Shown here: piece after piece, positions 27,001 through 60,494 of the stretch | Position numbering within the stretch: position 1 is the first letter of the stretch | How the letters are laid out: each line of letters begins with the position of its first letter | Assembly: GCA_014871385.1 (NCBI GenBank) | Contig: CM026428.1 | Location: 2,304,776 to 2,368,775, forward strand | DNA length: 64,000 nucleotides | Direction: 5' to 3' | Source of the DNA: Ceratodon purpureus | Taxonomy: Eukaryota > Streptophyta > Bryopsida > Pseudoditrichales > Ditrichaceae | Program-made: the position numbers and the translations under genes | Notes under the pieces: generated by a model | What the model was told of the DNA's origin: nothing | What the model saw: only the letters and a program-made list of their open reading frames with translations | Databases searched by the model: none

Positions 27001-27671
27001 GGTTTTACGCCCATGACATTAATAGATGTGTAAAAGGCACAAAGAAGTCGTTTGTGATCGATTGGCCATCTATCCCGCAGACTTGGCCTGTGAAAAGGGG
27101 CACGAATTTGACCATCAAAGAGATTTTGGCTCTTGAAGAGGCCGGGTTCCAACTCCAACAACGTGGAGTACTATCACCTCGACGTCAGTTCTAGGTTGCT
27201 GCTAATATGCCGCTTCCAAGGAGTCATTTCCCGGTTCCTGTCGATCCTGATACACACCCGACGACTCGAAACGGATATGCCATCAGGAGAAGTTCTGACG
27301 CTCCTACCTCCAAGCACCGCAACAAGTGGAGCAGCGCGGGTCTCATGAACAAGTATTGGATAACAAGTGTCACATCGATCCCATATCCAGGATTTGGCTG
27401 TGTCATCTCCTTGAAGAGTCCCAGTGAAACCATATATTGTATCACCATCACGGACTTTCCTGGATGTACTTGCCCCGACTTCATGAAAATGACTTTGGAA
27501 ACCCTTGGCAAAAGAGACCAGTGGAAGTACTGCAAACATGTTTATTATATCTTCCGCTATCTATGTGAGATGGATTACAAGGTTGATACTTTCATGCACG
27601 CCCCTAGCTTCAGCTTCAACGAAGTTATGCGTGTTCTAGAGATGGCCAAAGTTGCTGAACCGCTTGAGTAG
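24052..27671 (+). pseudogene. Element A transposase, MULE/Zisupton-like with SWIM finger, two in-frame stops
   Basis: Two exons, 24052-26200 and 26301-27671, stay in one frame throughout, with only TAA at 25528 and TAG at 27192 interrupting. The N-terminal 130 residues are globular; a Ser-rich linker follows. A Cys/His-rich module (about 24925-25200, ending HLGRHRHP) is a likely DNA-binding zinc region. The DDE-type core has an Asp in WIMFDHVKR (about 25645), Asp in FKGFMADNAGANWHAV (about 25840-25885) and CLFHW after it. The C-terminus holds a SWIM finger: CTCPDF (about 27465) then CKHVYYI (27531-27551). Those features are shared by MULE and Zisupton-type transposases. Both stops can come from C-to-T changes in Gln codons. 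Start could also be the ATG at 24094. As it stands, no full-length enzyme is made. Confidence 0.8.
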
Positions 27672-28191
27672 TTTTTCGTATGATTAGACTCTGATATTGA
27701 GTGACCAATACAGTTCAAAAATACATTATATGAATAGCGGAATTGATTTGTTTTGGCTTTGTGCTGGATTTGGAATCCGCAGAACATAAATAAAGGTCAC
27801 TATTTTATTTATTAATTGTTCACTTCTCAAATTTGGTCGTGTAAAAATTAAGAAGGAAAGTAATGTTTTGGCATATTTTGGGAATATTCTGTCTTCGGAT
27901 CCGAGGAGAGAATATTCCCTTACGACCTCAAACTATTCTTTTTCCAGTTCCGAGACCACGAAAATGATTAAAAAAAAATTTCAAAAAAATTGGTTATGTA
28001 ACTTAAATAGTTAGATATTACCTGAAACCACGCACATTTCATTCATTCCACGGTTATAGGCTCTACTTATTTGGCATTCATATATACAAGCAAAGTGTCC
28101 CAAATCGCTCATCATTGTGTGATAGCTCTCAAAAAAACTCAAAAAATATACTAAAAACTCAATTTTTTACAGAGAAACTGATTTTTTTTGG
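27672..28191. other. Right subterminal region of element A
   Basis: AT-rich, no gene. Contains a one-base variant of the CCTCGGATCCGAGG palindrome at 27894-27907 that also occurs three times in an intron of the cargo gene. Confidence 0.5.
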
Positions 28192-28233
28192 GCTCACCGC
28201 TCACTGCTCACTGCTCACCGCTCACAAGATAGC
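28192..28233 (-). repeat. Right terminal inverted repeat of element A
   Basis: Reverse complement of 6801-6842 with 41 of 42 positions identical, again with five GTGAGC(G/A) heptamers read on the minus strand. The second copy of the 15-bp direct repeat starts three bases outside. Confidence 0.88.
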
Positions 28234-28236
28234 GTC

Positions 28237-28659
28237 GCTGACGATGCTGCCAGTTCGGGCTTGAGAATCATTTGTTGTTTTTTTGTTATTGTTTTTTTTA
28301 ATAGATTCTGGAGTTTGGTGCTGCGACGTGAACTGGTGGCGCACCGACTATAGTAGTGAAGGAATCAAGTGCAGGTGTGGTTTTTTAATTTTCAATTTTT
28401 AATTTTCTTTTGGCAATAAAGAAGGGACGAGGTCTATGCACCGACTGTAGTAGTGAAGGAATCAAAAATCACACCACGGAAGGATAACTTAGGGGGACTT
28501 TCCATGTGTGGAAACCCATCTGTCCAATGTTCATGCTATATAATATAAATTACCTTTGGAAGGACATTTTTAATAGTTGTAGTTTATGCCTTTTCTACTA
28601 TACTATTTTTGATTTTTTGATTAAATGATTTTCAAAATTTAAAAAAAAAAAAAAAAACT
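28237..28659. other. Spacer between elements A and B
   Basis: Starts with the direct repeat GCTGACGATGCTGCC (28237-28251). A 26-bp sequence (GCACCGACT, one variable base, then TAGTAGTGAAGGAATCAA) occurs at about 28341 and again at about 28439. Ends in a run of 17 A before the TATAA that flanks element B. No gene seen. Confidence 0.6.
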
Positions 28660-28664
28660 TATAA

Positions 28665-28694
28665 TACTACATATAGGTGTAAGCACACTACGCC
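28665..28694 (+). repeat. Left terminal inverted repeat of element B
   Basis: Reads TACTACATATAGGTG then AAGCACACTACGCC after one T. The matching right end on the minus strand starts CTCTTCATATGGGTG. CACTAC occurs inside both, 21 bases from the end. Confidence 0.55.
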
Positions 28695-30186
28695 CCCATA
28701 AAAAGTATGTCAAAAAAGTACTTTTCTGGAAATACCCGGTAGAAAGTACTCTGTTTTCCCAAGTAAAAACTGTGCGAATGCATTTCCCATTACAGAATAT
28801 GTTTGGAACATTGCTTAGCATTGTTATTGTATTCCCAATATCACAAAAAAAGTCGCATGGAGTAATAAAAGTAGTACTTTTCCCAAATTTAAAAGTATGT
28901 CAGATTGTCGAAAATTCTACAAAGTACAAATTTGTGCTCAGTTAGATGTTCTTTTTTCCTGTAATCTTGTAACAGGGAATAGGACTCATAAATGGCTACG
29001 GACCCCACTTGAAGAAACTAAGAGAAGCTGAAGATCCCTGGAAAAATTCGCTGCCTTTTGTCTTTTTTTTTCGCAGCCTAGAATTCCTAAAATATAAGGA
29101 TCTTTTGTGATTTTCCTACGTAGAAGGCTTTCTGGACGTGTGCCCCATGTTGGCTAACGGCCATTTCATTCTTATCAGTTGTTTTATTAGACATTAAGAA
29201 TTGATGCGGCCGCCACCAAGAGTAGTTGAAAATGTACTTCCAAAATGAGAAGTACTTAGAGTACTTTACAGCAGAATTTTGAACCGTCAGATTACCATGG
29301 GCTCACATCTCAGCCGTACGCGTTGTTGATAAGGTCCGATTTAAGTGGATCTAGCCGGTTTCGAATGCAGGTGGATCTTCTGTTAGTTTAATGGATGGAT
29401 GGATTTCACTAGAATCTGTCCATCTACAATTGGTTTCTCTTGCATGCACCTACAGTGCATGCAAGGGTTCTGAACGTCGACTGAAGTTGTTTTTCGGAGT
29501 TGCAAGGTCTCTAAGCTGCGGCGCAGCCATCGCCAGGGTTTGTTACACAAATGTCTGGGGAAGGGCATCTTCCGAACTCCACACTAGTTCAATCCCTCAT
29601 AACATCCTACTACGTAGTGCGAGATCCCCCGCAGCTTGTGCAGCAGAGTATTACACATTACTACCTTGTCTGCGACGTTGTCAACGAAGAGTTTGAGAGT
29701 GTAGGTCAGCATTTCACCACCTATTCATGTGATAGTCCCTCTGATGATGTGTCTAGTAGTACCCACGTATCCAAAACTCCAACTTCAAAGGTTGGAGATA
29801 TTAGCTAGTACCTGCATCATTCAAACGAAGCGTTGCAGTCCCGTGAGCGCCTGGTCCAGTCGCCCAAAACCTTGTTTGGATCCTTCACTGTTGAGGGCGG
29901 TCTCCCTCGGCAGGAACTCAGGTTCTACCCCGACTGTCGGAGTCCTTCCCCTGTGCATTCGGTGAGTTTCTCTTCAAGTTCATGCACAACTTCTAAGTTT
30001 TGATTATGTACTTGTTTTGCTGTCAAATTTATGTTCTTTGATGGCAACATGTTGTACTTGTTCCCCACTGTATTTGCACGTAGGTCCAGGACAAGGCTCT
30101 TGCAACCTCTATTTTTCCAGATTGTGATCTGCCTTCTCTAACCGCGTAGTCTCTTCTGTGGGTTCACGGGTCTCATCATTTGTAGC
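28695..30186. other. Left subterminal region and 5' flank of the element B transposase gene
   Basis: Rich in AGTACTT-like words between about 28,700 and 29,290. An open frame at 29551-29808 (MSGEGHLPNSTLVQ and on, 85 residues) has no recognised motif; it could be a small gene or an upstream exon of the transposase gene, since several plausible donors and acceptors lie between it and 30187. Confidence 0.45.
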
Positions 30187-33100
30187 ATGGGCGACCAAGC
30201 CCGGAGACAGAGGTTGAGGCCGCAACGTGCTGGTCAAGCGGAGAGGGCCTCATCGATGGAAACTGCAGAGGCTGCACGGTTAGAGAAGGCAGAGCGGAAT
30301 CGGTTGTACCAGGAACGCCATCGCAAGAGAATTTCCATGGACTCGGAAGGAGGAGAGACGTGTACGACAAACACAGCTCCTGAGATTGCAGATGCCATTT
30401 CTACGAGAGATGCATCTAGGGTTGCTCAGAAAATTGTGCACAGCCTGTGTGATGAGCTAAACCTTCTTCCTGGTCCCCACTGTCATCAAACTGTGCTTGA
30501 GAAGGTTCTTCGCCACAGTCTTGTTAGGCCTTTGTTACCTTACTATTATCCTCGGGATTCAGAAGCAAAGAGTATTCATTATTTTATTCAAAGTTATAGA
30601 GCAGAGTTACAGTCCGTGTCCATACCGTTTTCAAACAACATGTTGTCTAGAAAAGGTGCTCTTTTGGATGCTGCTGTAAGTGGGAATATTGGGGGTGTTA
30701 GGGCGCTTGCACGTGTCTTAGGAACCAAGACAGATAATATACAAGCTGCCTTGGAAAGAAGAGAAGAGTATGAGGAGGGTGCTGCTCGGTTTGCACCCCT
30801 TCGCAGGCAAAAACGCACAGATGGATCTACAGAGTACTGCCTTGCTACAGTTCAGGCTTGGTGGCACAGTGAAACCAGAGTAAGTTCAAATAGAAAGGAC
30901 GTCGTCAACAAGGGTGGTGGGCTGAAGAGAGGAGGAGAGACACATCCAAAGCACTATTTGACAGTCACGCAGGTATGTCTTCGATACTTTGCATGAAAAC
31001 CATCTTGTACCGCATGTACACAACAATCATATTGTACAATGTTGCTGTTACTTAATGTACTTTGACACCGTTTGTATTTCACGTACTTGCAAAGAAGTAC
31101 TAACAGTGTCAAAAATTCTCCCCTATGTTACTCTTTTTATGTCAAAGTGCAAAAAGTATTTTCCTTAATGAAAACACTAGAGTACTCTTACTGTCACATG
31201 TACTACTTCTTATATTATGTGTACTTCGAATTTACTTTTTGTACTAATGGATGTATATAATTTGTATTATTATGATTTAAGGTACAATCCGCATGTAGTT
31301 TTCATAATCTACGTAGTACTTGATGGGGGTGGTGTTGTATATTGCAGTACTTTAATATTTTGTGTATGTACATTTACTTAGTACTTTTTAAAAGGCAGGG
31401 TACTCGTGGTATTCATGTTATTGCCGAAGATGTATTTGTTGATACTCTGTGAATGTACTTTTGGTTTTCAATGTACTTCTAGGTTCAGATTGTTCAGATC
31501 TGTAGTACTAATAATACTTTCTTATGTATGTGGGTTGCAGACGACGTTCTTTTTGCAGTTCAAAGAGGCTCATCTAGAGTGTAAGATTGGGCAACGTAGA
31601 TTCGAGAATCTGAAACCATGGTATGTGAAACCTCTGAGGGACCGTAATGTCTGCTGCTGTATCTACCATGTAGAAATGGATCTCATGAGGGTAGGACTGA
31701 ACACCTTACGGGAGGAGAAGAGGGGACTGCATGCACAAAAAGATTGCTCTTGTGAATGTGACGTTTGTTCTGCTTCTGTGGAGACTGCCACCGGTGAGGG
31801 TATAGGCTGTGATGCTCATCACAGAGTATACAAGAGGATCACTCATTTGTGGGAAGCTTGTCTCTGCAAGAAGCCAGAGTTCAATGAATGGCACAAGCTC
31901 GATTGTCTAATGGGTGATTGTGAAGAATGTGGTGTAGATACTCTTGGTTTTTGCCCACAGGAGATGTCTTCACTGGAGGAACCTAAACTAAGGTGGAAAC
32001 ACTTCTCGTATGTTACTATTGGCACTGACCGTGAGACAGGGAAGGCGAAGAAAAGGCTGCAAGAGGTATATGAAGAGACTAGTCCTTTGGAGTTTGTTAC
32101 TTACCTAAAACCCAAAGTTCAAGCCTTTATCAAGCATAATTTTATTGCCAATTGGCAGGATTGGCAGTGCAAGGAAATGATGGAAGGTTTGCCTGAGGGA
32201 ATTATAGTTTCCCACATCGATTTTGCAGAGAACTATGAATTCCAGATTCAAAACGAAGTTCAGAGCATGTATTATATGTCTGAGTATGTGTCCTTGTTGG
32301 TCCACATCACTTTGCAGAGAGTCCGTGATGTGAGTGGTGATTTGATCACCATAAAAAATACACACTACTATATTTCGGATGACAAGAAACATGACAGTTT
32401 GTTCGTTCAGCATTGTCTTATGCTACACTGGAGGTGGTTGATTGCTAACGGGGAAAAACCGAGGGAGCATTGGGTATTCTCTGATGGCTGTGCAGGTCAG
32501 TTTAAGGGGGCTACAGCAATGTATTTTGTTGCTAGGTATCCCAGTCTCACAGGAGGGTGCTCTATGATCTGGAACTTTTTCGCAACTGGACATGGGAAAG
32601 GTACTTGTTAATCTGTACTTCTTTGAGTGAAGCTCCTGTACTTTTGTACTTTTATTACTACAGCGTATGTACTTATGTACTTCTTGAGTGGAGATAGTGT
32701 ACTTATGTACTTGTATGAGTAAAGCAGAATCTTTATTACGGGATGGAGATGATGTGCTAAGCAGTGAACATTGTTTTACTGAACATTATTGGATGCAATT
32801 GTAGGTGAATGGGATGGTGCAGGAGCCGTGGTGAAGCGTGCTTTACGTATCGAACAGATTCGAAACCCTGAGAGGCAGCTGCAGAACGCACTCCAATGTG
32901 TAGAGTTCTTACAGCAGGGCTTTTCTAATAGAGCGCCTTCTTCGTATGCAGGGACCAGCAGCAGAGATATTCACCGTACCTTTTGGCACGTAGGTGAGAA
33001 CGAGATCAGTAGGGAGTCATCGATGGCGTGTCACACTATTGCAGGCTCAAGATCTCTCCATTCCATTATGGGGAATTCTACCATCAATAAGACATGTCTG

Positions 33101-33741
33101 CTGGTCAGACCTTTGTCATGTTTCTGTGCATCCTGTATAGATAAATATTGGGAGAATTGTGAACAAACAGCTCATGTCCCTGGGTGGAGGGCAGTACAAA
33201 TCCAGCCGAAAGCACCGTCAGAGGACCTGGAGACCCTGGATGACGACCCAGTCGAGCAGGTACTGTTCTGTAATAGCACTGCAGTTGTAATGTTTTGTTT
33301 TTACATCCCATTGAGATTTTTTGAATTCAGAACCTTGCTGCATACATGAAGAATAATTTGAGGTTCTGAATCTACTGATTTATTCAGGTCCACCATGGAG
33401 AGAGGCTAGACGACGTCGTTGACATTGGTGACAATTTTGTAGTTCCAGCTGAACAACCAAATGAAGAGGGTGTTGACTTCTACATCTTGCAATGCCAACG
33501 ACGAAAGTATAAACTAGAGGCTCATCTTGCGTGTCCTTGGGGTGCCGAATTTGAAGCAGGGGATTTTGTCATTGAAGGCACATATTACAAAAAGTCTGGC
33601 CGGGGTGAATACACATACACATATCTTGAAAAATCAGTAGTAGCTCATGTTTCATCGCACCTGGTTCTAGCCTGCAAGTTCCGAATGAAACTTGCCCCAT
33701 ATTGCCTGAAAGGTGGGGATCCAGTTTATAAGATCTCCTGA
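30187..33741 (+). CDS. Element B DDE-transposase-like protein, four exons, intact
   Basis: Exons 30187-30972, 31541-32600, 32805-33259 and 33388-33741 join in phase to 884 residues with no stop. The N-terminus is Arg-rich (bipartite nuclear-signal-like). A Cys/His cluster (about 31745-31965) includes CSCECDVC and CLMGDCEECG and is a likely zinc module. The core has HIDFAENYEFQIQNEVQ, then FSDGCAGQFKG, then WNFFATGHGKG joined across the intron to EWDGAGAVVKRA. I recall this trio of motifs from uncharacterised transposon-like proteins of animals and other eukaryotes; the Asp residues of DFAEN, SDG and WDG are candidate catalytic acids. That role is inferred and the superfamily is not recognised. 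Introns, unlike exons, are packed with GTAC. It faces the SET gene. Intact coding makes it the best candidate for activity in the window. Confidence 0.75.
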
Positions 33742-36700
33742 GAAGTAGTCGATGTAGTGAGACACGCTTTAGCACAGATGTGGGAAAATGACGATGAGTA
33801 ATATTTCTTGCAATTAAACCTGTTGTTTTATAACTTTGTCAATTCCATACTATTTCACTGGAACCTACAAACCTTCTATGATCCGACTGTACTGTGTATG
33901 TGATGTGTGTGAACGTACCTGGTTGTTAACTATCTCCCATGCATGACGTTGATTGATTGGTTCAATATACAAGGAGTTACATGCATACCGTTTCCTTCAA
34001 TGTCACTAAGCAAATTAGTTTCTTGCATCAGTCGCAGTGTTAGTTGAGCATAAACATGGCAATAGTAATCAGAGAAGTATGATGCATTAGAAAGTAATGA
34101 AGCAATATGGATGGATAACCTAGGTGGGACTGTAATGATGTTCACATTTAATAATAATCAAAAACCGTTGGTTAAGTTGTTCCTCGGAAGGAATATCCTC
34201 AGAAATAACTCCCCAAATCGCAAGACTGGCATCTAGCATTGTTATGATCCATCTAATTTTATCTCATAGACATTCCCTTCTGAAATATAAGACATACTGT
34301 CCACTCCCGCGGACGAGTCTCACTATAAACAGGGATCTGGGGCAATAATGGAAACGCTTTATCTTTTCTGAAGGGACCACTGCATTATGTGACAAATGTT
34401 TGTCAGCTATTACTACGCAGCTTACCTGGGGTCTCGGCATATACTGTAACTGGACAAACGCGACACTGAATTTGAAGCACAAACCAAAAATAAGAGAGGG
34501 TTGAACTAGTAGACACGTCATGATATTCTCTTAAGTGCCTTCAATGATTGGGTAAATGGACGTTTATAATTTATTTAATTGAAACACGGATGCAAAACCG
34601 CGATTTAATATGAAAAAAGGGCAATTGAAAAGGAAATAACAAAAATCCAATAAAATAAAAGAAAATAAAAATATTTAAAATAACAAATTTACTTAAAATG
34701 AAACATTGTGAATAAGACGCAAAATGTCGAAGCTATAATATTACCTCCATTTGATTAACAAATCCTATCATTAATTTTATACTTAACTATATATGGATGT
34801 GCATGTATGTAGCCTTAAATAATACGTTATTGGACGATTATTTTGTAGGAGTATAAACATTCAGAAATAACCATGAAAACATAATTGGAATGTACAGTAC
34901 TGTTTAATTTGGAATGTGTAGTGCAAGATTCGATTTAGTTAATTCATAGCTCAAACATCAGTTGCCAATTATATAAAAAAATCATGGAGAGCGAATATAG
35001 GCTTAAGTGTTATTCATATACATATCTAAGATATTCGAAAAATCTTAAATTTAAATAATCTACAAATACATATAAAAGATATGAGATAAGTATAAACGCC
35101 TAGTTAGTACTAAAGTATTAGTGAATACGCGGTAATATTTCAAATTAACTCTATGAGGTCAACTAATGTCCTACCAATGTCCATTCTTTTTATTGATGTT
35201 CCTCTTCCATTTATTTTATTTTTTTCTAGAAGCACCTCTTGTTTCCTACTCTTATTATTCTATTTTATTTCTTCTTTTATTTCATACTTCATTTACTTTT
35301 ACTTTTCTATTGCATCCCCTTTCTTCCATCCTTCTTACTCTTCATTTATTTTTTGAAGCTTCTTCTCTCTTCTTGTCCTTCACTTTCTTTTATTTTGATT
35401 TAATTTTTCTCCATCTTATTCATTGTTTTTGTTCCATTATTTTTTATTTTTTTCAACCTTCTTTTGTCTTGTTGTCTATTTCATACTTCATTTACTTTTA
35501 CTTTTCTATTGCATCCCCTTTCTTCCATCCTTCTTACTCTTCAATTATTTTTTGAAACTTCTTCTCTCTTCTTGTCCTTCACTTTCTTTTATTTTGATTT
35601 AATTTTTCTCCATCTTATTCATTGTTTTTGTTCCATTATTTTTTTATTTTTTTATTTTTTTCAACCTTCTTTTGTCTTGTTGTCTATTTCATACTTCATT
35701 TACTTTTACTTTTCTATTGCGTCCCCTTTCTTCCATCCTTCTTACTCTTCATTTATTTTTTGAAGCTTCTTCTCTCTTTGATAAATATTTTTTCATCCTC
35801 TCTCTATTTATTCTTGTCCTTTTCTCATTTCATTTAATTTAATCTTACTTTTTCTTTGCCTTCACATTTCTTCGTATCCTTATTCATCTTTTATTTGATT
35901 ACATGTTATCCAATTTTTTATTTTTTATTTTTTTTTTCCTATCTTATGTTTTATTCTTGTTCACGTCACTCTTTTATTTTTATATTTTTTTCCTCACCCA
36001 TTCTTCTTTCTCGATATGTCATAGTTTTTATGGACTGAATATATGGATAGATCTTCTTTAGGATTTCGGTGGTTGGTGGGACAAACGCTAATGTGGGTGT
36101 TAACGACTATATGTGGCGGGAGAAGATAGAGCGGGAAGGTTTATGAGTGGAGGGAAACGATTCTTTTCAAGGAGAATAGTCCGAGCGGGACGGAATCCAA
36201 AGCAATCAGATTGCCGCCTGAATGTGGCCGTTTGGAAACAAATATAGAAAACATAGCTATTGTACCAAGCTAAGTCCGAGGTACACCTTTCCCTTGCTCG
36301 GTGTTTCTAGTCTTGCTTTGTCTATGAACTGCCCCACCGTCAGAACCTCTTCTACGCACCCTCTTGTACTTCCTCAACTCTCCTTCGCCTCTGCTGCGTG
36401 TTTGCTTTCTCTTCTTATGAGTCCACTGCTTTCATGATTGTGTGTTTCTTGCATAGTGATTTTCTAACGTTAACTCTTCTTCACAGTTTGTCTGCGGTTG
36501 TTCATCTACATTGTACTAAATTTATTCCTTAGACTGAAGTGTATGTAGGTTGTGTTTCCATGAACCAGTTCTCAAAAGGAGAGTTCTTTGGAGGTGGCTC
36601 ACTGGACCACCCTTCGAGGCTTCTCAAAACAACTGTAGGGCGCATCAATGGAGGTAGTAGATTTTTCAGAACCGTGCACAATTGATTTACAATTTTTTGT

Positions 36701-36775
36701 TCATTTTATTTAAGTTCTAGAGTGCAACGATCTCTCCAATGTCCTGACCATGAACTTAGCAAAGGTTGCTCAAAT
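33742..36775. other. Spacer between the two convergent element B genes
   Basis: About 34,550-35,150 is AT-rich. From about 35,160 to 36,010 the plus strand is almost all pyrimidine and contains a tandem repeat (separate entry); the Phe/Ser-rich open frames there are composition artefacts. Around 36,559-36,650 an ATG-led stretch (MNQFSKGEFFGGG) ending at a possible donor looks weakly coding but nothing supports it further. Confidence 0.55.
35282..35790. repeat. Pyrimidine-rich tandem repeat, about 2.5 copies of a 200-bp unit
   Basis: The word TCATACTTCATTTACTTTTA recurs at 35282, 35481 and 35689, giving periods of 199 and 208 bp; the units between them are nearly identical apart from runs of T that differ in length. 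The third copy is partial. Confidence 0.85.
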
Positions 36776-39700
36776 TTATGCAACTGTTTGATAGCGTATC
36801 CTGACTTTCGACTTGGAGGTGTCACGATCCTTCTTTTTCATAGTGGTTCTTCGTATCGACCTGGTTGGCTTCTCTTCTTTCTCTTCCACTCGCTTCTCCC
36901 GTTTTGACTTCAGTTTTATTTTCCATTGCTTGTCCCGACACTTGCTACTCCCGCATCGGCATCTGAAGCTGGGTATATCCCGGTCATCTGACTTGAAGTC
37001 CTCGCCGTAGTCCTGCCACACATGTCACCCGTAAATTAGTAACAGATCCTAGAATTTAGTTTAGAATTTATATAAGAATAGAAGTCACGCTGGACTTTGA
37101 AGAGGTAGGGCCTAATGTTTGGTAGTGCTACTTACCCATGTCAGCTCCTCTCCTGGGTGGATGTCACGTTTCGCGAAGAATGCAACGTGGTAGATACAGT
37201 CTTCTGCTGAGTGGAGTCGAGCAAGGACGTCGATGACGTTGGCTCCCTCGCACCTGAAAACAACCAAAGTAACAAATATTAGGAGTAATTTGGACTACTA
37301 AACTCTAAGCACTGAATTCCAACCTATACCGAGCATAGTGAGCTAGGACAGTCCATGCCTGTGGTTTAGAAATCTGGCAACATTGCCATAGTGAGTTGCA
37401 TCGATACTTAGGGAGTTGTTGTCCGTGGCCATTATTTCTGATCGCCAACAAGCATCGAGCTGAAGAGTATAGGTTTGCCTAAACCCAAGAAGCTTGTGCA
37501 CCAGGTGGTTCCGTTCGATCAGTTCACCATTAGTCACAATCTCCCCCGCGAGCTCAAACAAAAACTTACCTGCCTGGATGTGCTCCACTGTCCGGAGACC
37601 CCAGCCTCGAGTAGAAGTATTGAAAACCTGCCAACGACAAAGCAATTTTTAGAAACAAATTCTTTAATATCGCAAATTTCATAATGAAATCAATAACTCT
37701 GTAACTTGTTTCATTCATCCTTACCTGGACTTTCGTCATCATGCCATGTTGTATGACCCGGTTCCCACACTTTGAATGGCAAGCGCACATGGAGTTGCAT
37801 TCCGTAATAAAAGTCTTTCCTTCGTGACCACGACAAACTGTCTCCTCCTCACTAGTAGTCTCCTTGTCCTCATTCGGAAGACTGGAACAATAACACCCGG
37901 AACCAAAGTCACAATATTCCAAACCTGGTTTGTCATCCAACTTTTTCATGACGTCGGCCCGAAGGAGGCCAGCCGTGTCATATGCAAAATCCCCCGAGTG
38001 TAGGGCGCACGTGCAACCAGACTTTCCAGAAGTCAGACAGTCCGAACCACATCCTAGACATCCTGCTCTGGGTTTGAATGTGTCTTGAATGGGTTTCCAC
38101 AAGTCGTCACCAGGCTCCTCAACTAACACCATGCTCTCTTTAGTGTAATAAAACTGAGGAAGGGGGATTGGATTTCCAACTGGACCGACCACTTGCACGG
38201 GATTTTGCTCCAAGCCATGTGATAGGTCCGCAACCAATACATTACCCTGTTTTGACAAGGCAGATTTTATTCCCTTAGAATTAGTGGATGGGGTGACTTA
38301 TTTTGGCACGCGATGGAATACATACAAAAAGTCAAATATAGAGTAGAAAACCAATTATCGGAATGAATAATAAACATATCAGAGTATAGAGGAAAAAACC
38401 ATAGACCCAAACGAGCCCAGGCATGTATAACTGAAGATACGAAGCATAGTGTACAAAAAAATTTCGCACCCATACTCAACTGCCTACACAAGACTACACA
38501 ATCCTGCACAAAACTACTACAACAGTTAGTTAGAGGACGCCAATACAATGTTCACCGGCTTCAGTTTTTTTCCACTTGGTTTGCCTTCGGGACTTGCAAC
38601 ATCGGGGCAGCTACGATTGGTAGGGCTCTCCTTCGACTTTCTTTTGCTTGATTTCTTCTGCCCACCTACTTCCACTGCACGGTCCTTCTTCTTATTTCTT
38701 CCCTTGGACTTCCGCTTGATTGCCTTCTCATCACCTTCACCTTCCTGGACCTCATCTCCAGCGTCGGTGGATCTTCTACTGGCACGAGTCCTCTGAGCTA
38801 GCCCCAGCTCTTCGCCACCTCCTCTTCCAATCAGACCTTGTCCCTCCAGCTCCTCCTGCAGCCGCCTCCCTTCTAAGGACTTTCTCGTCCCCTTCACATG
38901 TTTCTCCTTGGCCTGGTTCCCAACACCTCTGGCCACCTCGTCTTCCTCCGCCAATTCCTTCATGACTGCCGGATTCTCTCCTACAGGACAGGCCTTGTCT
39001 TGGTTAGTGGGCACTTCCATTGCCATGTTCAACTAGACCAAGGAGCTCCAAGGCCTGCCCCATATTCCCAGACTGTCTTGTTCCAGCACCTCCTCTTGCT
39101 CCTCGCCTAACCCCTCGTCTCCTACAACCTTCACTACCTGAACAGCACCCCCTACCTTACCCTTAGTCTCCCCTCCTCCTTCTATTTCACTATCCAGCTC
39201 CATGTCACTATCTCTCTTAACCTCCCCGGCCCCTTGTACTATGTCCTGTCTTGGCTCGCCTTCTTCACCTGTGTCAATCGTCGGTTCTACTCCACGTGGG
39301 CGTTCCAGGGTTTCTCTATCTTGGGCTGCCACCATTTGAACAGGTGGAGTCTGAATCAGACCCTCATCCCGGAACTTCTTCTCGATGTCCATCCTCGGTC
39401 CATTATTCTCTCTTGGTACATCTTCTTGAACCTGCAAAACCTGAAGACTGTGGCCACTTTCTCCTTCATCATCTTCATTGTCGCTCTCTTCACTATCACT
39501 GTTGCTTCCACTGACTGTTGTACCCGAGTTTGACGATAGGTCAGGGCATTTCTCTGAGGCAATCTCACGTGAACAGTTAGAACTTAATACCTTGTAGACA
39601 AATCACGCACTTTCCATTCATTCGGCATTTGAAATACAACTGAAATACAATGTGAGGTACATAATATAATACCTCATTAGTGGAGTTAGAATTGCATACC

Positions 39701-42700
39701 TTCGGGTTCAGAGTCTTCCTCTTCCGAATCTTCAACAAACTCGGGCTCATTTACCTTTGATTTCCCGCGTGAATCCCTCTCAAGGCACTCGTAAACCATC
39801 TCCGGAGGTAGTCTAGCTCGTGCTCCAGTTTTCCGTCCCTCAGATCTCCCGATCGACGTTCCAGACCTTGTGGTTGTCTGATTAATCTTGACGGGACTGT
39901 CCACCACCATCTTACCTCCATCCTCCTCTCTGACCACCTATAGACTGCTTGTAAACGTTTCTCCACCGGCTGAGTCTCTAAAACGAGTAGATACTGCTTG
40001 ACTTTGCTCTCCACCACTAGCAAGCCCGTGCGAAAGGCAAGACACCGGTTTCAATGAGGAATCTGTCATCAACCCAAACAATCTGAATTAACAAGTAGTT
40101 CAAAAGTACAACAATGTACTATTAGTACGTCTACTATTCGCAAAAACTACTATTAGTACTTCAATACCAAGTAAACCTTGGTACTTTGCTAGTACATCAT
40201 ACAAATAATATACTATTCTAGAGCAGCGTAGTACTATTATGCCACCTAAGTACTAGTAGAACTGAGAGAAGAACTAGTAAGTACGCTTTGTATTTCAGAT
40301 AAATTATCATTCTTACAAAGAGTACTACGCTGTACTAATCTAGAAATTGATAGTGAATACATAATGTACAACATATACAACTACTGCGTCTACATTTGAA
40401 TTTACCAAAAGTATTCGATGTACACAAACTCTACGAAGAAGGCAAAATGTACATGAAAGTACAAAACGAGTACAATAAGTAAAGAAAACAAAAAAACGGA
40501 AAATGCATCCAAGTACAAAAGCAATAAACTGTAGAGGGGAATGTAATCTTCCTTGAGCCTCTGCAAGACAAGTACTTGTGATTAGTAACTCTCTGTTGTA
40601 AGGGAAACCAAAAAAACGCTAAAGAGTACATCTTTAGTACTATCCCTAATACTAAAAGGAATATAAGTACTATAAGCACTACGTCCCGTAGAAACTCGAA
40701 GCATTTAGGCAGTACCTCAAAACAGGTTGGTAGGATGGCATTTGAAATAAAAACCACCGTAAGTACTGACCTGTGTTAGGACATCGCAGACGTGCTCGTT
40801 CAGCTCGTTCAGCAAGCAACCGCGCCACCTCCTCATCACACACGGTCATCTGCGCAGCAACATCTTCGACAACAAGAGTACCTGGACCTCCCCACCCGAA
40901 ACTACGGTGCCAATCTGGGTCTACCAGTTTATCACTACAGTTAGCTGCGGCACACTTGTACCCACTCTCGTAGGTCACCTTTGCGCAGAAAGGGTGATAC
41001 ATGTGCTTACAACTCGCTATGACTATATCACTCTTCGGGAAGTTGAAACCGCAAAGGGCACGTGCTTGGTGATTTTCAAGAACCTGCGCTCGGGAGACAA
41101 GTCTTCACCAAATGCGGAATCAGGGTAAACAAGTGGCACAGGGTTGAGGCTCGCACATTGCCTCCCATATTTGATGCGATCGATCTCCACCTTTACCCCT
41201 TCACACATCCGCGACTTCTGCTCCCGCAACCTACGACACTCTGCTGCGGCTATATCCCTCTGTAGCGCCTCCGCCTCCTTTTTTTCTAGAACTTGCTTCT
41301 GTTCCTCCAATAGCTCGGCTAATAAACTCTGCTTTGCTTCGTTTCCCGGATGTGCCACGTCCGCATTCTGAAGAGAGGCCAGATTAGCCTCATAGGACTC
41401 CACCATCAGGAGTGCAAGTCGCTGGTCTTGAGCAGCTCCTTCCTTAGCCTTCTTCGCCAACTCCTCGTCCAACTTCAACCCCTCTATCTCCATTAGTAAC
41501 ACAGCGTGCATTGTCTGGAAATACTCCAGCTTTGACATTGATGCTATTCCCCGGTCCTCTACCTTCACCGACGACTTAGCAAATTCCCCTTTCGTCCCCA
41601 TTTTTCTACTGCTCGGGAAATTGCTAGGTGCCGGGATAGCCCTCCTCTACAAGAACAGACATTCAGAAGAAACGAATAGATAGTTAGAAACAATGCTTTT
41701 AGAATATACATTACATCCAGACATAAACATAAACGAAAGAAATTAACCTTAATCACAACAGACATATATTACAATGCAATTCATTTCTATGGACCGGGCT
41801 AATGCAATGCGAAGTATAGACCAACTTAGACTCCTATAACACTGACCCATTAAATCCAATGTTTTCTATTCAATTAAAATCATAGCAATATCCGTGCACT
41901 ACAAGTAATTGCTAGCAATCATAGCAATATCCTAGCAAACTACAAATTGAAATCATTCCATTGTCATTGCAATGTCTTCCATAACATAAATTGTAATCAT
42001 ACACACTAATGTAGAGCAGAAAATAAACAACTAACACACATAACAGGAAAGAATTTCAAGCAGTTTAGTTTACGTACCTTGGTGGGCGTCGTAGCCTCCA
42101 TTCCGACATTCGGCTCCAATTTCACCGCAGCATCAACCTTCAAACTCCTCCAAGTCCGCTTTGTAACCTTCGCACCCGTATTGATAGCGAATTGGAGCTT
42201 GGAAAGATCCTGCTCGTACTTCCTCCGCTAGCTGTGATTGGTCTCTTGGCCATACAACGCCCAATTAACCAAGTTATTTTGATATTCCAAGACCACGCCA
42301 ACAGCAAACTGCTTGGTCACGCATCTAGGTATCTCTTCAGGACCGTGTTGATACACGATTGGATGCATATACTTGATACGGTTCACTATCTCCCGCACCT
42401 TGCATTCTGACCACGAATATCCACCACGCCCCTTAACCCCCTCCGGCTTCAACCCAAACTCCAGCATTGTCTTGTCGCTGATGTCCTTATCCTTCCGACA
42501 ACGATGGGGGTTGATTGAGTTCGGCCCGCACTCCAGATTGTACCTGTCGCGAAAGTCCTCCCAAGTTAGCACATCCGGAGGAGTTTTCAAGCCATCTATC
42601 AACTCCTGCAAGTCGTCGATGTTGAGAAAGCGCTCCTCCTCCTTCACAGGCATCCCTGGTGCTTCACTGCCCCCTGACTTAGTCTTAACGAGCTTCACTC

Positions 42701-42791
42701 CCATCCCAGATCCAGCACTCCCTCTAGACCTATTCTTTCCATCCCTCGAAGTTGATATCATCCCTTCTAAACCCCCGGACTTCCTCGACAT
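36776..42791 (-). pseudogene. Element B cargo: long protein with RING-like finger and SUVR-type SET histone methyltransferase domain, three in-frame stops
   Basis: Exons: 42791-42078, 41646-41131, 41083-40771, 40062-39700, 39553-38556, 38246-37725, 37627-37359, 37253-37136, 37012-36776. These sum to 4,050 bases in one phase. The N-terminal 230 residues are unrecognised, followed by a coiled coil, then a zinc module (ALCGFNF, CKHMYHPFCA, NCSDKL, WHRSFG). A long charged low-complexity region precedes a Cys-rich pre-SET (GCLGCGSDCL, CTCALH, CNSMCACHSKCGNRV). SET has TRGWGLRT, NVARFLNHRC and EELTWDYG; post-SET is CRCGSSKC. Plant enzymes of this layout methylate histone H3 Lys9. TAG codons at 42230, 39940 and 39035 interrupt otherwise open exons. 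One intron is GC-AG (37358-37255); one is only 47 nt (41130-41084) and might be a frameshift. With these stops no full protein is made unless they are read through. Confidence 0.78.
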
Positions 42792-43060
42792 TGCTAAACA
42801 CTTATACAACAAGATCCCCGCCCCAAACTTATGCGAACCCTAAACCCTAAACAAATATTCCAGCTCTTACCCTAGAGGAGCAGCTAAACCTTATCGCAAA
42901 CACTTAAGGGAAAACAATAAAACTGCGACAGAAGACTCTAACTCTATATCCTCAAACTCTGAATACCCATTTGAGCTATCGCACCCAATAACAAACCACA
43001 TCTCCAACAAACAAAGACATTAAACAATGATGCACAAACAAGTGAAATCCCAACTGAAAC

Positions 43061-43440
43061 CAAACTCTAAGACAAACACACGCAACCCCCAAAAACTGTA
43101 ACTCTCAATCCCTCAGTCCTCACAGAAACCTCTAATTCTCAAACCATCTAACCCTCGATCCCTCTATCTCTCACAAAACCTCTGACCCTCCATCTGAACT
43201 AACAACACAGTAGTAAACAACACAACAGATAACTCTCCTCTCCAAAACTCACAACATCTAAGCAGATTGCAAAACCAACCCTAAGCAGAACACACGCAAC
43301 TCACAAGAACTCTAACTCTCAATCCCTCTATCCCTCACAGAAACCTCTAACCCTCAAACCCTCTAACACCCTAAACCCTCTATCCCTCGCAAAACCCCCT
43401 AACCCTCCATCTGAACTAACAACATAACAACTAACATCAA
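43061..43440. repeat. 214-bp direct duplication rich in telomere-like CCCTAA/CCCTCTA words
   Basis: Segments 43061-43225 and 43275-43440 align with a 214-base offset (CGCAAC at 43081 and 43295). Both contain many CCCTC, CTAACCCTC and AACCCTCTA words, and CCCTAAACCCTAAAC occurs nearby at about 42838. It lies in the 5' flank of the SET gene, inside element B. Confidence 0.75.
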
Positions 43441-43765
43441 AACAAAAGACCCTCCTCTTGAAAAATCAAAACTTTTAACCAAATTGCGAACCACAAAACA
43501 CAACCGAGACTAACTTAGACCAACACCAACGAGACTGGAGAAATCTGGAGGTTCAAGACGATGACTACCGGCTACAACAGGTGAGACCCAATCCAGTTAC
43601 CTGAGACCACCGGTCAAGTCCAACGTGATTGGTCGATCTGAGCATGGGCGCAGGTGGATCGCGGTGGTGATATCGACGGCCACGGTTATCCAGAGAAGTA
43701 CTACAGATACTTACTAGTATAAATGTACTATAAAAGTACTTCTAAAATCTGCCCAAAGTGTACCC

Positions 43766-43795
43766 GGTGTAGTGTACTCTCACCCATATGAAGAG
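43766..43795 (-). repeat. Right terminal inverted repeat of element B
   Basis: On the minus strand it reads CTCTTCATATGGGTGAGAG then TACACTACACC, matching the left end at 22 of 30 positions. TATAA follows at 43796-43800. Confidence 0.55.
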
Positions 43796-43800
43796 TATAA

Positions 43801-44824
43801 CATTGATGCCACATATTGAACATCATGTTTTGTTAAGTTATAGGAAGAAGCCTTTTATGGAAATAATTGAATCAAATGAGATCATATTATATTAGAGGTG
43901 TAATAGAAGCACTTAGGCCTAGAGGTTGGAGTTTAGTTCAATAAAAACCTTGCAACTTTTACAATGGAATGGCCTCAAATTCCTAACAAATTTGTGCCAC
44001 ATAGGCCATCATGTAAAATGGAGGAAGTTTGAATTGGTTTCTAATTAAAGTCCTAGAGTCCAATTCATCTTATTTGAGTGATTGTATTGATTGAAATTTG
44101 ACTACTTGGAATTGGGCTTTTGTGTCTAAAATCCCCTTTAGTATACATGGCAAAATTTGGATTCTATTGGTTACATAGAATAGAGCACAAAAGGATTTCA
44201 CGAGTTGTAATCCATTCCACAGTAACGCAATGGCTATTTATATTCAAGGATTTAGAAAATAAAATATAAATGGTCTTTGCTTCTACAAATATGTCTACAA
44301 GGTTGTATGCTCTCCATTAGATTATAGGTTTCAATAGGTTGTTGGACTAATTGTTGGTAGTATTATATTACCAGAGGACAATCACATAATTAACTTTGTG
44401 CATTGTGAATTATAAGTAGTGTGTGATCAATCTATGCTGATTTATGTAATTATGTGTGTGTGTGTGTGTTAAATTTTACTAAGGATCACAAGGACTGTAC
44501 ATGGTAGTGTATCTCTTGATTGGAATTCAGTGTTCATTTTATTTCTGCAACACATAATTGGAATCTTCAATGGCTCTAGAGAATATGATGTGTTCACGTT
44601 ATTTCGACAATGTAGGATTGGTATAATTGGGGTGGGCTATAGAGTAACAAATGCGTTGCTGAAGGGGCCGGCTTCTCTCCGTAAAAATTACCTGATTTCC
44701 GGTACTCATGGCCGGCGTCAACATGCCCGATTCTGGTAGCAGAAGAGGACACAGTATGATTGTGCCTATAGCCAGCACAGATTCGAGTAGATTAGCACAA
44801 GTGAGCATATTTGTAAGACAATAT
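43801..44824. other. AT-rich intergenic DNA between element B and the Sfi1-like gene
   Basis: No coding region seen. Contains a short (TG)n microsatellite at about 44452-44470. The GTAC-rich composition of element B ends here. Confidence 0.55.
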
Positions 44825-47800
44825 TCAACGACTGTCCAACGTTCTTCCAGGACTAGGACCAGCGTCTGGCGGAGGCCTGGGTGTTGCTTTAGAGCCACTT
44901 CGATTCGAAGGATCCTGCTCAAATCCACAACCACAATACACCAGCACGAATCTCAAATCTCTGCAAAGTTATTCTACTGCAGAAATGAAAATTTACATCA
45001 ATTGCAACGTGGAAGGTCCGAAGGTATACACGTTGAGAGTACTTTATTGAATTAAGCAGATTCAAATGGAAAGTCGAGGCAGCATTAGGTAGAACTTGCA
45101 GGCATTGCGACTTAAATGCAAGAACTGAAACTGTGAAGAATTTTTTAATTCTTATTTTGGTTTAAGGAATCAAAGTATGATAATTATGATATGACTTTTG
45201 TTGAATATTGAGGTGGAGACCTTTGCAAGTTAACCTATAGAAGGCTGAAAAGGATAGTAGATTCTAAAATGAGAGACTTACTTCTGGTCCAGCAGAATCT
45301 CGCAATCGACTCATAATGCGAGCCTGCAAGCGCTGAATTTCAAGATGAAGGCTATCGACTGCATTGGGGTCGTCGTCCAATACCATGCGATGCGGGCCTT
45401 CCCCTGTTGTTTGAAGAGCTCCACCACCACCAGCCTCAAGCGGTTGTTGCTCAGGTCGCTGATCTGTCATAGCATATGATCCAGGCTCCCCTGTATATCC
45501 TAGTGGTGTCGGCCTCGTTGTGGAAACGAGTGCAAACGACGTCTCCCAATCGGGTTGCGACATGTCTTGCCCCTGATACAACAAGACAGAGCGGCTCTCC
45601 TGATCGAGTGTGTCCTCACTTGCCTGCCGATGCGTCTCGGTGCCCATATCCGTATGTGCAGGCTCGTCCAGCGGGCGAGATGTCCCACCCATGACTGAGT
45701 CTGGTGGCTTCTCCAGAGTGGGTGTGGAATCATGGTGGCCGGCATGTAGTGGTTCAAAGCCACTCACTATGCCATGAGGTAGTAATTCAGGAAGTGCGTC
45801 CGTGCGAGATGGTATTTCCTCCTGCTGGTCTCCGTAGTATGTAGTGGAGGGAGCTTCAGTTACGTAGGCATAACTTTGCTCTCTGCGTATTAACGTCGGT
45901 GCTCCTTCCAAACTTGTACTAGCGCTTCGTTGTTGAAGGGCGCTCTTGGCTTCCTCGTATGTCTGACGCATGGACTGCTTGGTAGAAAAGCCACATCTTC
46001 GAGGATCCTGATTGAGTGGTGTTGCTGACCAGGAATTTAAGCCTGAAACAAACGATTTCGTCTTCATGGCCGTTTGCTCTGTATTTCGTGGATGAAATAT
46101 GTCAGATATCAGATGATGGAGTAAAACGTATATCTTTCTAACAATCTGGTCCCGATTGTCAGAATTCACAAGACCGAGTACATGGATTATAATGGACGGG
46201 TAATAGATTTGCAAGTTGCAGATCAAGTAAAGATACCTTCTGTTAGGGCTAAAGTATATTGAAGATAGAAAAGAAGAAGGCAGAGAAGGGACATGATAAG
46301 GGCATGTTCTTTTCAATTTTATTTGAAATGCAACAATCGACTCTGAAGGCGAGACGAATAACTGAAAATCTTGGTGTAACTGTGCAGGGACCAAAGATGG
46401 AATACCGTACCGGACATAAGCTTTATCTCGTATTCCAACTTCCGTACACGACTTTCTTTAGAATCCATTGCCAACTCCATATTTTGTAATTGCTCTTGCA
46501 CCTCTTGCACCTGCAAGACCAATACCAAATTAAAGATACTGATTTGTTTTTGCTTTTGAACGATGAACTTCGCACCAGTAGGAACAACAGGTGTTAAATC
46601 CCAATTTAATTAAGAAGAGACGACTCTTTTTTTGTGAAAAGTGCGCATTCTATTATTGGTGCAGAGAATCATCAATACCTCTTGCTGTTTACAGCATAGC
46701 AGTGTCTCCAGCTCTTGGATGCGACTGTCTCTGCATTCAACTGTTTCACATAACGTGCAGTTGGCCACTGCTAATTTGCGTTGCACCTCTCCTAACTCCA
46801 ATTCTCGCCTCTGTTTTTGCGTCATAAGTACGTTAGCAGTGACAAACACCCGCGTCCTAAATAATAACTAGCATCTAGTAGCAGCCAATACCAGGCACTG
46901 AAGAAGCATTAGATACGAAAATTAGGGTAGAATAAGCCAACATTTTATACGTGGTTTCTAGGTGTAAATTCCGTACCCGACAGTTTCCTTCCAATGTAGC
47001 GAACTGGCACTCACGATCTTCTAGTAATTTCCTCAGCGATCCAGCAATCTCAAAAGCACTTGTGAGTTTCTCTTGGGACTCGTCTGATGCCCCTTCGAGT
47101 CTCTCTGCTGTTTCTTTCAATGCCTGAGCGCCGAATCAGAGCCCCAATGACGACAGGTCAGTTGATGCAAGATCAGCGAATATGGAGAGTGGATTATCAT
47201 GCGATAAAGTACATGGCTGTCAGGATTTGTTACCAATAAGATGAGCTCAACGAACTCAATCTAACAAACAATCTACAAGATGTGTACACTCTGGAACAAA
47301 CCTTTTCGTACGAATCAATTTGAGAGGTTTTATCAGACAATTGGATGCGGAGCTCTTTAAGAGACTGCTCCAAGTTTTGAATTTCCAAGGTATGATGAAT
47401 CTCCCCAGCAGTATCCTCTGCATTCTTCATTTGGAGCTTTTTCTGCATCATCGTGGTTGCAGCACCGATGTTAGTTTACACCAAAGAGTTGGTAAGGCAG
47501 TAATAAAATTAAGGGGCCAATTGTGCTTGCAATTTTTTATTTTTTTAGATTTTGTGTGTGATTTTACGTTTGTCGAAAGACACGATTATGGGCAGAATGT
47601 GTAACTACTACCTGAAGACCCTGAATCTCACACTCAAGCTCCTCACATCGACAGTGCTGCTGCTCTATTTCACCACGCATGGAGTTTTCTAGCATGGCGC
47701 CATCTTCTAGAGCACGATGCAGATTCTCCTCTTGTTTCTCCTTCTCATTGATGGTCGTCTTGAGGTATGCTACTTCTGATGACATTGTATGAAGACGGTC

Positions 47801-58985: not shown

Positions 58986-60494
58986 TCACACATCCTTACA
59001 GCCAACATCATCTTGCTCAATAACAGGCCAGTGCTTCCTCACAAATTTGGCAAGAGAGCTTGAGCTGATATAACTCTCATAACCACTATCTTTTCGAGAT
59101 TTAACAAGCAACATCTGCTGCTTCAAAGGTAAGGTCATGAACAGGTGTTTTGTAGGTTGATCAAAATTAAATTTACCTCCTACTAACACCTTCACAAGCA
59201 TCATATGCCAGTTCTCAAGCAGTGCAACTCGTTCAGCTGTTTTCAACAGCAAATTCCCAGCCGCCACCTCTTGATATATCAAAAGTACGAGTTTTGCCAG
59301 TTCCAATGCCGCATTCCTGGCTTCACCTGGCTTTGCACCATACTCTCCGATAGGAAAATTTGCACCAAAACTGTGACTCTGGCTTGTGAGAAGGCTGTCA
59401 GTTGTTCCAAGAATTTGGGCAAGTGCATGTAAATGCACAAAGCGTTGGACAAATTCTTCGGCCACTCTTGCAGCTAGTAATGTCTCCAGTGTCCAACAGA
59501 TTGCGAGAATCTTATCTGCAAACTTGGGCACCTTATGATATGCCTTCCCTTCACACTCCTTTGCAATTCTTACGACCATGTTGCTTGCCTCTCTGGTAAC
59601 AATCGTGACGATATCTTTCATGCAATGAGGATGCAGAATTAGTCCACCGGCTGGTCCATTGCTTGCAATGTTGCACGGCCTTGCGTGGCCATTTGGGCTG
59701 CCTGGTGCACTGCCTAGTAGCAACTCTTTGAAGAAAGCGCGATTAGAGCGGTAATTTCCATCACAAGCCAACGCACTCTGAATGCATTGCTCTATCATGT
59801 CGCACAATTGCTCGTGCCATTCGTCTTTGCTCATGTCCATCCCTAACCGGGCAACTAAGTCCTCGGCATGGTTGCGAGGAAAATCATGTCTGGTGGCATA
59901 AATCCTGATGGCCATCTCGTCTGTATCCGACCATAGCTTGGAAGACAAGTAGAGCGCAATGGAGTCCATCAACTCGTGAAATTGGATATGCGTAGCTGCC
60001 TTGAGAAGGCCCAGACTGTAATTGACATCCTTGAAGTCCTTGGAAAACGGTGGTGAGTACATGCGATGAAAGCACTCCGTGTAATGCCGAACATCTCCGT
60101 GCGTCTCAAGGACAAATTCGGAGGAAGAATCTGTAGAACTCACCGGCTTTTTCCATCGCACAGCCAAGCAGGTCTCAAAGTACTTGCTGCATTTGCTCAA
60201 ACGACTAGAATGAACCCTCACCTTCGTTAATGTTGGTTTGTCTTTCAAGAGCTCGCAATTGGTTCTGTATGGTACTAAGCATATGGTAACGTCGTGAGTC
60301 TCGTGACTAAAATCCGATCCACCACACTCCACAATCCGCGTCTGCTGCTCTTTCTTCTGTGGAGAGGATTGTTTCCCAAGCTTACCAGTCTCCTTTTGTC
60401 GCTTCTCACTACCCTGGGTCGCCTCCTGTGTCACGCCCTTTGTACTCTTCTCCACAAGCTTGAGATAATTACTAGGTTTCGTTGGCTCCTCCAT
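58986..60494 (-). CDS. BTB/POZ domain protein, plant At3g05675-like, single coding exon
   Basis: Plant BTB proteins of this layout are thought to be substrate adaptors for CUL3 ubiquitin ligases. The predicted 502 residues start at MEEPTKPSNYLK. A Lys/Gln-rich stretch follows, then a BTB fold (about residues 65-190) with DVTICLVP, KVRVHSSRLSKCSKYFETCL and YTECFHRMY. A long helical C-terminal region of the same plant family completes it (FADKILAICWTLETLLA, EEFVQRFVHLHALAQIL, KHLFMTLPLKQQMLL). The frame stays open upstream to an acceptor (AG before GAGTTGGGTC, about 60521), so an upstream exon, coding or 5' UTR, is likely. A broken copy of its C-terminal half lies at 2980-3632. No lesion seen. 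Confidence 0.85.
   Translation of the reverse strand: MEEPTKPSNYLKLVEKSTKGVTQEATQGSEKRQKETGKLGKQSSPQKKEQQTRIVECGGSDFSHETHDVTICLVPYRTNCELLKDKPTLTKVRVHSSRLSKCSKYFETCLAVRWKKPVSSTDSSSEFVLETHGDVRHYTECFHRMYSPPFSKDFKDVNYSLGLLKAATHIQFHELMDSIALYLSSKLWSDTDEMAIRIYATRHDFPRNHAEDLVARLGMDMSKDEWHEQLCDMIEQCIQSALACDGNYRSNRAFFKELLLGSAPGSPNGHARPCNIASNGPAGGLILHPHCMKDIVTIVTREASNMVVRIAKECEGKAYHKVPKFADKILAICWTLETLLAARVAEEFVQRFVHLHALAQILGTTDSLLTSQSHSFGANFPIGEYGAKPGEARNAALELAKLVLLIYQEVAAGNLLLKTAERVALLENWHMMLVKVLVGGKFNFDQPTKHLFMTLPLKQQMLLVKSRKDSGYESYISSSSLAKFVRKHWPVIEQDDVGCKDV

Follow-up and report, generated by a model that had tools for sequence, protein, structure and literature searches.

We analysed a 64,000-bp stretch of the genome of the moss Ceratodon purpureus (the window; C8:2304776-2368775 in a 362.5-Mb assembly of 151 contigs), in which a 15,111-bp element holds two predicted genes between inverted ends. 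One, on the + strand, is a putative transposase gene. The other, on the − strand and convergent with the first, is predicted to encode a protein with a RING-like part and a SET domain (RING-SET). A first-pass annotation of this DNA had described a GTAC-rich unit of about 15.1 kb and had suggested that it was a transposon bringing its own methyltransferase of the type acting on histone H3 lysine 9 (H3K9). The ends and coding parts of the element are as follows.

28675-43785 (15,111 bp), no strand: the element; four other copies homologous from 28676 to ~43785, 4-bp repeats in 5/5
28671-28674, no strand: left target-site duplication ATAT, a 4-bp direct repeat
43786-43789, no strand: right target-site duplication ATAT, a 4-bp direct repeat
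28675-28694, + strand: left terminal inverted repeat AGGTGTAAGCACACTACGCC, from end scan and copy comparison
43766-43785, − strand: right terminal inverted repeat, read inward GGGTGAGAGTACACTACACC, from end scan and copy comparison
30187-30972, + strand: transposase exon 1 (open frame, GT-AG junctions, matching phases)
31541-32600, + strand: transposase exon 2, holding two residues of the putative DDE/D-like triad, D489 and D577 (open frame; at least 116 genome matches)
32805-33259, + strand: transposase exon 3, with E617/D619 (open frame, residue spacing)
33388-33741, + strand: transposase exon 4, end of the frame (open frame)
42078-42791, − strand: RING-SET exon 1, a domain without assignment, with in-frame TAG at 42230-42228 (predicted model; relative in family 2)
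40771-41646, − strand: RING-SET exon 2, coiled-coil-like and RING-like, the frame shifting near 41050 (families 2 and 3 have RING-like relatives)
39700-40062, − strand: RING-SET exon 3, with in-frame TAG at 39940-39938 (predicted gene model)
38547-39553, − strand: RING-SET exon 4, acidic, with in-frame TAG at 39035-39033 (predicted model; other copies aligned)
37725-38273, − strand: SET part exon 1, pre-SET (PF05033)
37359-37627, − strand: SET part exon 2 (PF00856)
37136-37253, − strand: SET part exon 3, end of the SET domain (domain match)
36776-37012, − strand: SET part exon 4, post-SET and tail (structure-match search)

Ends of the element and its two genes

We placed the ends by comparing the window copy with three copies that are 98-99% identical to it in the SET region (C11:15719059, C6:90083968, and C6:58311410) and one that is 87% identical there (C2:16932820). 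Termini of the form GGGTG...CACCC were found in all five, with the variant AGGTG in the window, and the copies were flanked by the 4-bp direct repeats ATAT (window), TATG, GGCA, GGTA, and TAAG. A 4-bp duplication is compatible with 5/5 copies, a 5-bp duplication with a shared C with only 4/5. The first-pass annotation had set the ends at 28665 and 43795 with TATAA on both sides. The inverted ends are real but lie, at each side, 10 bp further in than had been annotated; TATAA is present at both sides, but the five copies rule it out as the target duplication. The window by itself would not have settled this. We scanned 28000-30186 against 42840-45000 for a direct repeat with a 30-bp inverted match, using shuffled controls. 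With a 5-bp repeat, the pair from the first-pass annotation ranked top at 22/30 (runner-up 17; 22 reached in 0/200 shuffles). With a 3-bp repeat, 22 was reached by 2/200 shuffles, and with a 4-bp repeat, a different pair (20) ranked top. Because winner and significance change with a 3- or 4-bp repeat, sequence alone cannot fix the ends. The local score of the two ends was reached by 10/2000 random stretch pairs from the window, and a chance origin of the ends was ruled out by the copy comparison.

An empty site was found for the C6:58.3M copy. Its flanks, joined with the repeat kept once, were crossed by 40/40 scored matches (of 74 candidates) at 95-99% identity, 39 of them with the same length and one three bases shorter. 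This copy has landed in a dispersed repeat, and the other members of that repeat lack the insertion at this point. With shared terminal inverted repeats, a constant 4-bp duplication, and an empty site for one copy, the element is best read as a cut-and-paste DNA transposon (class II, terminal inverted repeat type). The empty-site check had been proposed for the breakpoints of the first-pass annotation, which are refuted; the element itself stands, and its proposed size agrees with the 15,111 bp given by the copies. The flanks of the copy on C2 (C2:16926400-16943500; L049/L050) resemble leucine-rich-repeat coding DNA by eye, so that insertion may interrupt a resistance-like gene.

Both genes had been anticipated in the first-pass annotation, and we could model each. 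Four exons with GT-AG introns join in phase into a predicted 884-aa frame without a stop, and the DDE/D-like spacing of D489, D577, and E617/D619 led us to infer that this first gene encodes a transposase. Its product found no Pfam match up to E=1 and sub-threshold matches or none in NCBIfam, PHROGs, and PDB; the predicted structure of exon 2 had a pLDDT (predicted local distance difference test) of 30, too low for use. It may be related to a widespread animal protein family. The second gene can be modeled with eight exons whose splice sites are selectable so that the phases fit, if one frame change is allowed. It would encode, in order, an N part, a coiled-coil-like/RING-like part, an acidic part, and then pre-SET, SET, and post-SET. 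The SET domain covers 105/105 profile positions, and pre-SET, SET, and post-SET are complete and open, with the conserved motifs of Su(var)3-9-type enzymes. The nearest solved structures are H3K9 methyltransferases (EHMT2, 1.9e-31; Clr4, 3e-30; SUVH6, 5.2e-26; PDB), and the product is probably a Su(var)3-9-type histone lysine methyltransferase acting on H3K9. Between the two convergent genes lies a T-rich tandem array of ~199-bp units (35269-35778).

Copies, families, and selection

We searched the assembly for further copies. Transposase exon 2 has at least 116 matches in the genome (115 scored of 1172 candidates), and the SET DNA has at least 44, among them the window copy, with identities of 74-100% (40 of 100 candidates scored). 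A transposase was present at 7/7 SET copies whose transposase place was inspected. Among the matches listed, at least 61 of the 116 transposase matches have a SET match within 12 kb, and 61/61 of these pairs are convergent with none in another arrangement; the chance expectation is ~0.03 partners per match on contig C6. Conversely, a listed transposase lies within 12 kb of at least 33 of the 44 SET-DNA matches and of at least 39 of 150 PF00856 matches (150 scored of 699 candidates). A host methyltransferase gene that sits beside a transposon by chance would not give this convergent pairing, nor would it place SET inside shared ends in five copies; that reading is refuted, with no point left in its favor, and we regard its probability as negligible. 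Three further SET matches (L001-L003), at which no transposase was found in the 3.3 kb examined, may be host genes.

More distant relatives repeat the arrangement. At five places found by the SET profile alone (L004-L008), a transposase adjoins SET in 5/5, with its C part 44-54% identical. Family 2 (C1) keeps the order of parts, with identities of 37-58% by segment in the transposase, 47.5% in SET, 39% in RING, and 36% in the N part. Family 3 (C12, L056) is likewise convergent, with 40-58% in the transposase, 39% in SET, and 46% in RING, and it apparently lacks transposase intron 2. Full ends were seen in one of these two families, family 2: GGGTGAAAGCATGCTAGGGTGG, matching at 22/25 (runner-up 17/25), with GGGTG, the repeat ACCG, and a length of ~10.8 kb, in a scan of one element with the 4-bp repeat length fixed beforehand and without a shuffle control. 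PF00856 matches with 383- and 206-aa frames form groups of equal length, many without stops; these may represent additional families of this type, the C12 member L056 being family 3.

We then compared substitutions among copies. In 15/30 copies, the window among them, the SET part (391 codons including the stop) has an open frame and retains every splice site; a 27-base insertion in one subfamily, a multiple of three, lay outside the translated columns. The acidic frame has no stop across the aligned stretch in 14/30 copies, two of them with short alignments. The ratio of nonsynonymous to synonymous rates (dN/dS) of the SET part was 0.28-0.36 when the window was compared with 12 open copies from the 86-87% subfamilies (Fisher tests on five pairs, p 8e-8 to 1e-12). 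By region, two such pairs gave 0.19 for the SET domain and 0.33-0.34 for pre-SET, and two other subfamilies compared with each other gave 0.20 for the SET part. Against its three closest copies, the window gave 1.15, 1.00, and 0.47. The SET values show the dN/dS pattern of a gene under selection in the active lineage and released after insertion. Transposase exon 2 gave 0.08-0.10 against six copies of 96-97% identity; its five closest copies, which differ by few changes, gave 0.19-0.52.

A number of observations tell against a methyltransferase gene that serves the element. Three TAG codons in frame and one shift of the frame interrupt the RING-SET gene of the window copy upstream of its SET part, so that the complete SET domain of the first-pass annotation stands, but in a gene whose upstream half is damaged. 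We found no support for reading TAG as an amino-acid codon: the 884 codons of the transposase contain zero in-frame TAG, and at 39035-39033 TAG is the minority state (4/31 aligned rows, two of them the window itself). In the other 15/30 copies, the SET part itself has a stop codon or a disrupted frame. Against faulty copies, SET dN/dS was 0.33-0.56, except for 1.0 with one very close copy; the tail after the SET domain gave 0.47-0.49 in two pairs, and SET is less constrained than the transposase. Among the matches listed, 55 of the 116 transposase matches have no partner. Five of these were settled, a set that excludes C4:20717064, C10:11084225, and C6:104846578, where 1.8 kb stops short of the SET place. 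The first-pass annotation had proposed looking for transposase copies without the SET gene, and the five were divided: four carry the SET gene, and one has no SET domain. The latter (C8:8360373; L070, C8:8362000-8368500) keeps an open transposase exon 2, the RING and acidic parts, and the start of the SET region, with the SET domain deleted. By its sequence it reads as a natural SET-less derivative, and, since its transposase frame is open, the SET domain is dispensable in individual copies.

The broken window copy, the faults in half of the copies, and the lost SET domain are also what would favor a passenger, that is, a host gene captured by chance and useless to the element. Such a passenger would hardly hold dN/dS well below 1 between subfamilies, stay open in 15/30 copies, or keep the same place and orientation in three distant families; the passenger reading is largely refuted, and we consider it very improbable. 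What stands of the earlier suggestion is the element as carrier of an H3K9-type methyltransferase gene, which is well supported by copies, shared ends, duplications, an empty site, convergent pairs, and purifying selection. That this is a mobile element carrying SET we take as nearly certain.

GTAC arrays, a proposed mechanism, and genomic setting

The GTAC-rich composition reported in the first pass was confirmed: GTAC occurs 92 times in 28665-43795 against 45 expected by shuffling (largest shuffle 57). The excess lies in two transposase introns, one RING-SET intron, and both ends.

30973-31540, + strand: transposase intron 1, GTAC array, 19 sites (count reached in 0/500 shuffles)
32601-32804, + strand: transposase intron 2, GTAC array, 8 sites (count reached in 0/500 shuffles)
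40063-40770, − strand: RING-acidic intron of the SET gene, GTAC array, 23 sites (count reached in 0/500 shuffles)
28675-29300, no strand: left subterminal AGTAC sites, 12 against 1.4 expected (28665-29300 tested)
43690-43785, no strand: right subterminal AGTAC sites, 6 against 0.2 expected (43690-43795 tested)

In an open k-mer test, AGTAC was the top pentamer in transposase introns 1-2 (28 vs. 1.7 expected), in the RING-acidic intron (28 vs. 1.5 expected), and separately in the left end and the right end; exons hold few GTAC or none. The homologous introns of family 2 contain 12 GTAC in 657 bp (count reached in 1/500 shuffles), 12 in 279 bp (0/500), and 14 in 1031 bp (2/500), and those of family 3 contain 20 in 813 bp and 21 in 1383 bp (0/500 each). 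The intron places of the arrays are thus common to the three families although the introns no longer align. At E up to 1e-5, the only DNA matches between the window and families 2 and 3 lie in exons of the transposase, so the arrays have outlasted their surrounding sequence. Preferred flanks vary, with A/T beside the core in family 1 and G at −2 in family 2. CpG and CHG composition was uninformative as a methylation signature.

The arrays make self-targeted chromatin control, in either direction, more plausible. We propose that the RING-like/upstream half, alone or with partners, would bind the GTAC arrays and so bring the RING-SET protein to the introns and ends of its own element. There the protein could write a histone mark, setting the chromatin state of its own family and leaving most host genes untouched. 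The effect might be self-silencing, as restraint, or protection from silencing by the host; the first-pass annotation had suggested that the element could silence or insulate itself or its host region. Taken alone, GTAC-addressed self-targeting is a tentative proposal to which we give slightly less than an even chance. The statement as a whole, a two-gene cut-and-paste transposon with its own histone methyltransferase and GTAC-addressed self-targeting, we somewhat favor.

Two other uses of the arrays have to be weighed. Subterminal repeats serve as transposase binding sites in other DNA transposons, and AGTAC sites are present in both subterminal regions here; the arrays might then be transposase sites, with the SET protein acting elsewhere (on the steering of integration or on host silencing factors). 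The densest arrays, in contrast, lie in introns at least 2 kb from the ends, in both genes and in three families, and we judge this explanation unlikely, though worth keeping in view. Plant factors of the SBP/SPL type recognize a GTAC core. A palindromic GTAC with loose flanks, located in predicted introns, would suit a host transcription factor of this kind acting through intronic enhancers or switches, with SET as an ordinary second gene, but the flank preference differs between families and the sites occur at the ends too; we consider this the less probable of the two. Self-targeting faces difficulties of its own. The SET introns of the window contain no GTAC, and family 2 has excess GTAC in three of its coding parts as well, at counts matched by 8 to 32 of 500 shuffles. 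The sites are only weakly phased with the helix (0.02-0.04; 0.14 with the period scanned). The RING match falls under the Pfam cut-offs, and the gene models were built from sequence, without transcripts. Binding, the histone mark, and its direction are likewise predictions.

Transposons are usually the targets of H3K9 methylation, not its authors. A plant family that keeps a Su(var)3-9-type enzyme under selection makes the management of its own heterochromatin by mobile DNA testable, and the candidate GTAC address sites might be turned into a short-motif tool for editing chromatin.

Copies are most abundant on C6, which spans 110.5 Mb, or 30.5% of assembly bases. It holds 67/116 of the transposase matches, 98/150 of the PF00856 matches, and 32/44 of the SET-DNA matches (top-scoring matches, not independent), so that scored SET and transposase matches are found there at about twice its share of bases. 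According to the part of PMC13120521 consulted, the sex chromosomes of Ceratodon purpureus make up ~30% of the genome, and C6 is probably the sex chromosome. Given that identity, abundance on C6 would link the family to sex-chromosome growth and continued expression. A wider reading, that this is a plant transposon superfamily with a self-addressing histone-writing system, is conceivable, but we hold it as rather doubtful. Each transposon would then write a chromatin state on every copy of itself, and transposase, enzyme, and GTAC sites would have remained linked despite deep divergence, multiplying mainly on the 110-Mb contig.

Elsewhere in the window lies a first large element (6801-28233, 21.4 kb) with 48-bp inverted ends that are 94% alike and a 15-bp direct repeat directly outside both ends. 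Within it, transposon-like open reading frames (ORFs) occupy 24052-27671, and others are found at 8571-10232 and 12204-12830. Nested in it is a Ty3-type long terminal repeat retrotransposon (13315-22161) with 300-bp repeats that are 99% alike, gag, reverse transcriptase, RNase H, and weak integrase matches. A long ORF at 58986-60587 with a weak BTB/POZ match is probably a host gene, and further ORFs lie on the − strand between 45264 and 53272.

Comparison with known systems

A 4-bp target duplication is known from the Sola superfamily. Membership in PIF/Harbinger was rejected: the transposase has no Pfam match up to E=1, and the duplication is 4 bp against the 0-3 bp given for Harbinger in the excerpts of PMC12730594. 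The closest precedents for a SET gene in a DNA transposon are HarbingerS and the SET-bearing MuDR of Phytophthora (oomycetes; Kojima and Jurka 2014, as cited in those excerpts), which, like the moss element, carry a SET histone methyltransferase gene within their ends. As described there, they use a Harbinger or MuDR transposase, whereas the moss element has a transposase without a Pfam family match, a 4-bp duplication, and a plant host; GTAC arrays and the RING-like half set it further apart. On these partial accounts, SET in DNA transposons is already known, and what appears new here is the plant transposon version. A limited search of open-access literature found no plant transposon with a SET gene, and the main text of a 2026 review on how plant transposons capture genes (PMC13317346) contains neither "histone" nor "SET domain." A text search of the literature for the protein motifs found nothing, and no relatives were confirmed in viral and prokaryote collections.

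Other systems share single traits. In the accounts consulted, SETMAR/Metnase combines SET with transposon material, as here, but as one fused host protein rather than two separate element genes, and the TET/JBP-bearing transposons of fungi (excerpts of PMC12730594) carry an epigenetic enzyme that acts on methylated DNA, not histones. With EHMT2, Clr4, and SUVH6, the moss gene has pre-SET, SET, and post-SET in common; it adds RING-like and acidic parts and is borne by a transposon.

The nearest functional parallel is VANDAL of Arabidopsis. According to excerpts of PMC5735166 and PMC10398659, its VANC protein binds short, family-specific motifs in non-coding parts, including introns, and removes silent marks. 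GTAC, too, is a short motif found densely packed in non-coding sequence, including introns, and its preferred flanks differ between families, in an element with an extra gene for putative chromatin control. Membership in VANDAL was rejected: the pieces searched gave no Pfam match to a MULE (Mutator-like element) transposase or to DUF1985/DUF287. VANC, on the same excerpts, has DUF1985/DUF287 and removes silent marks, whereas the second gene of the moss element encodes a complete SET module. It was this combination, a VANDAL-like layout of sites with a methyltransferase module in the place of VANC, that led us to propose GTAC-addressed writing of a histone mark.

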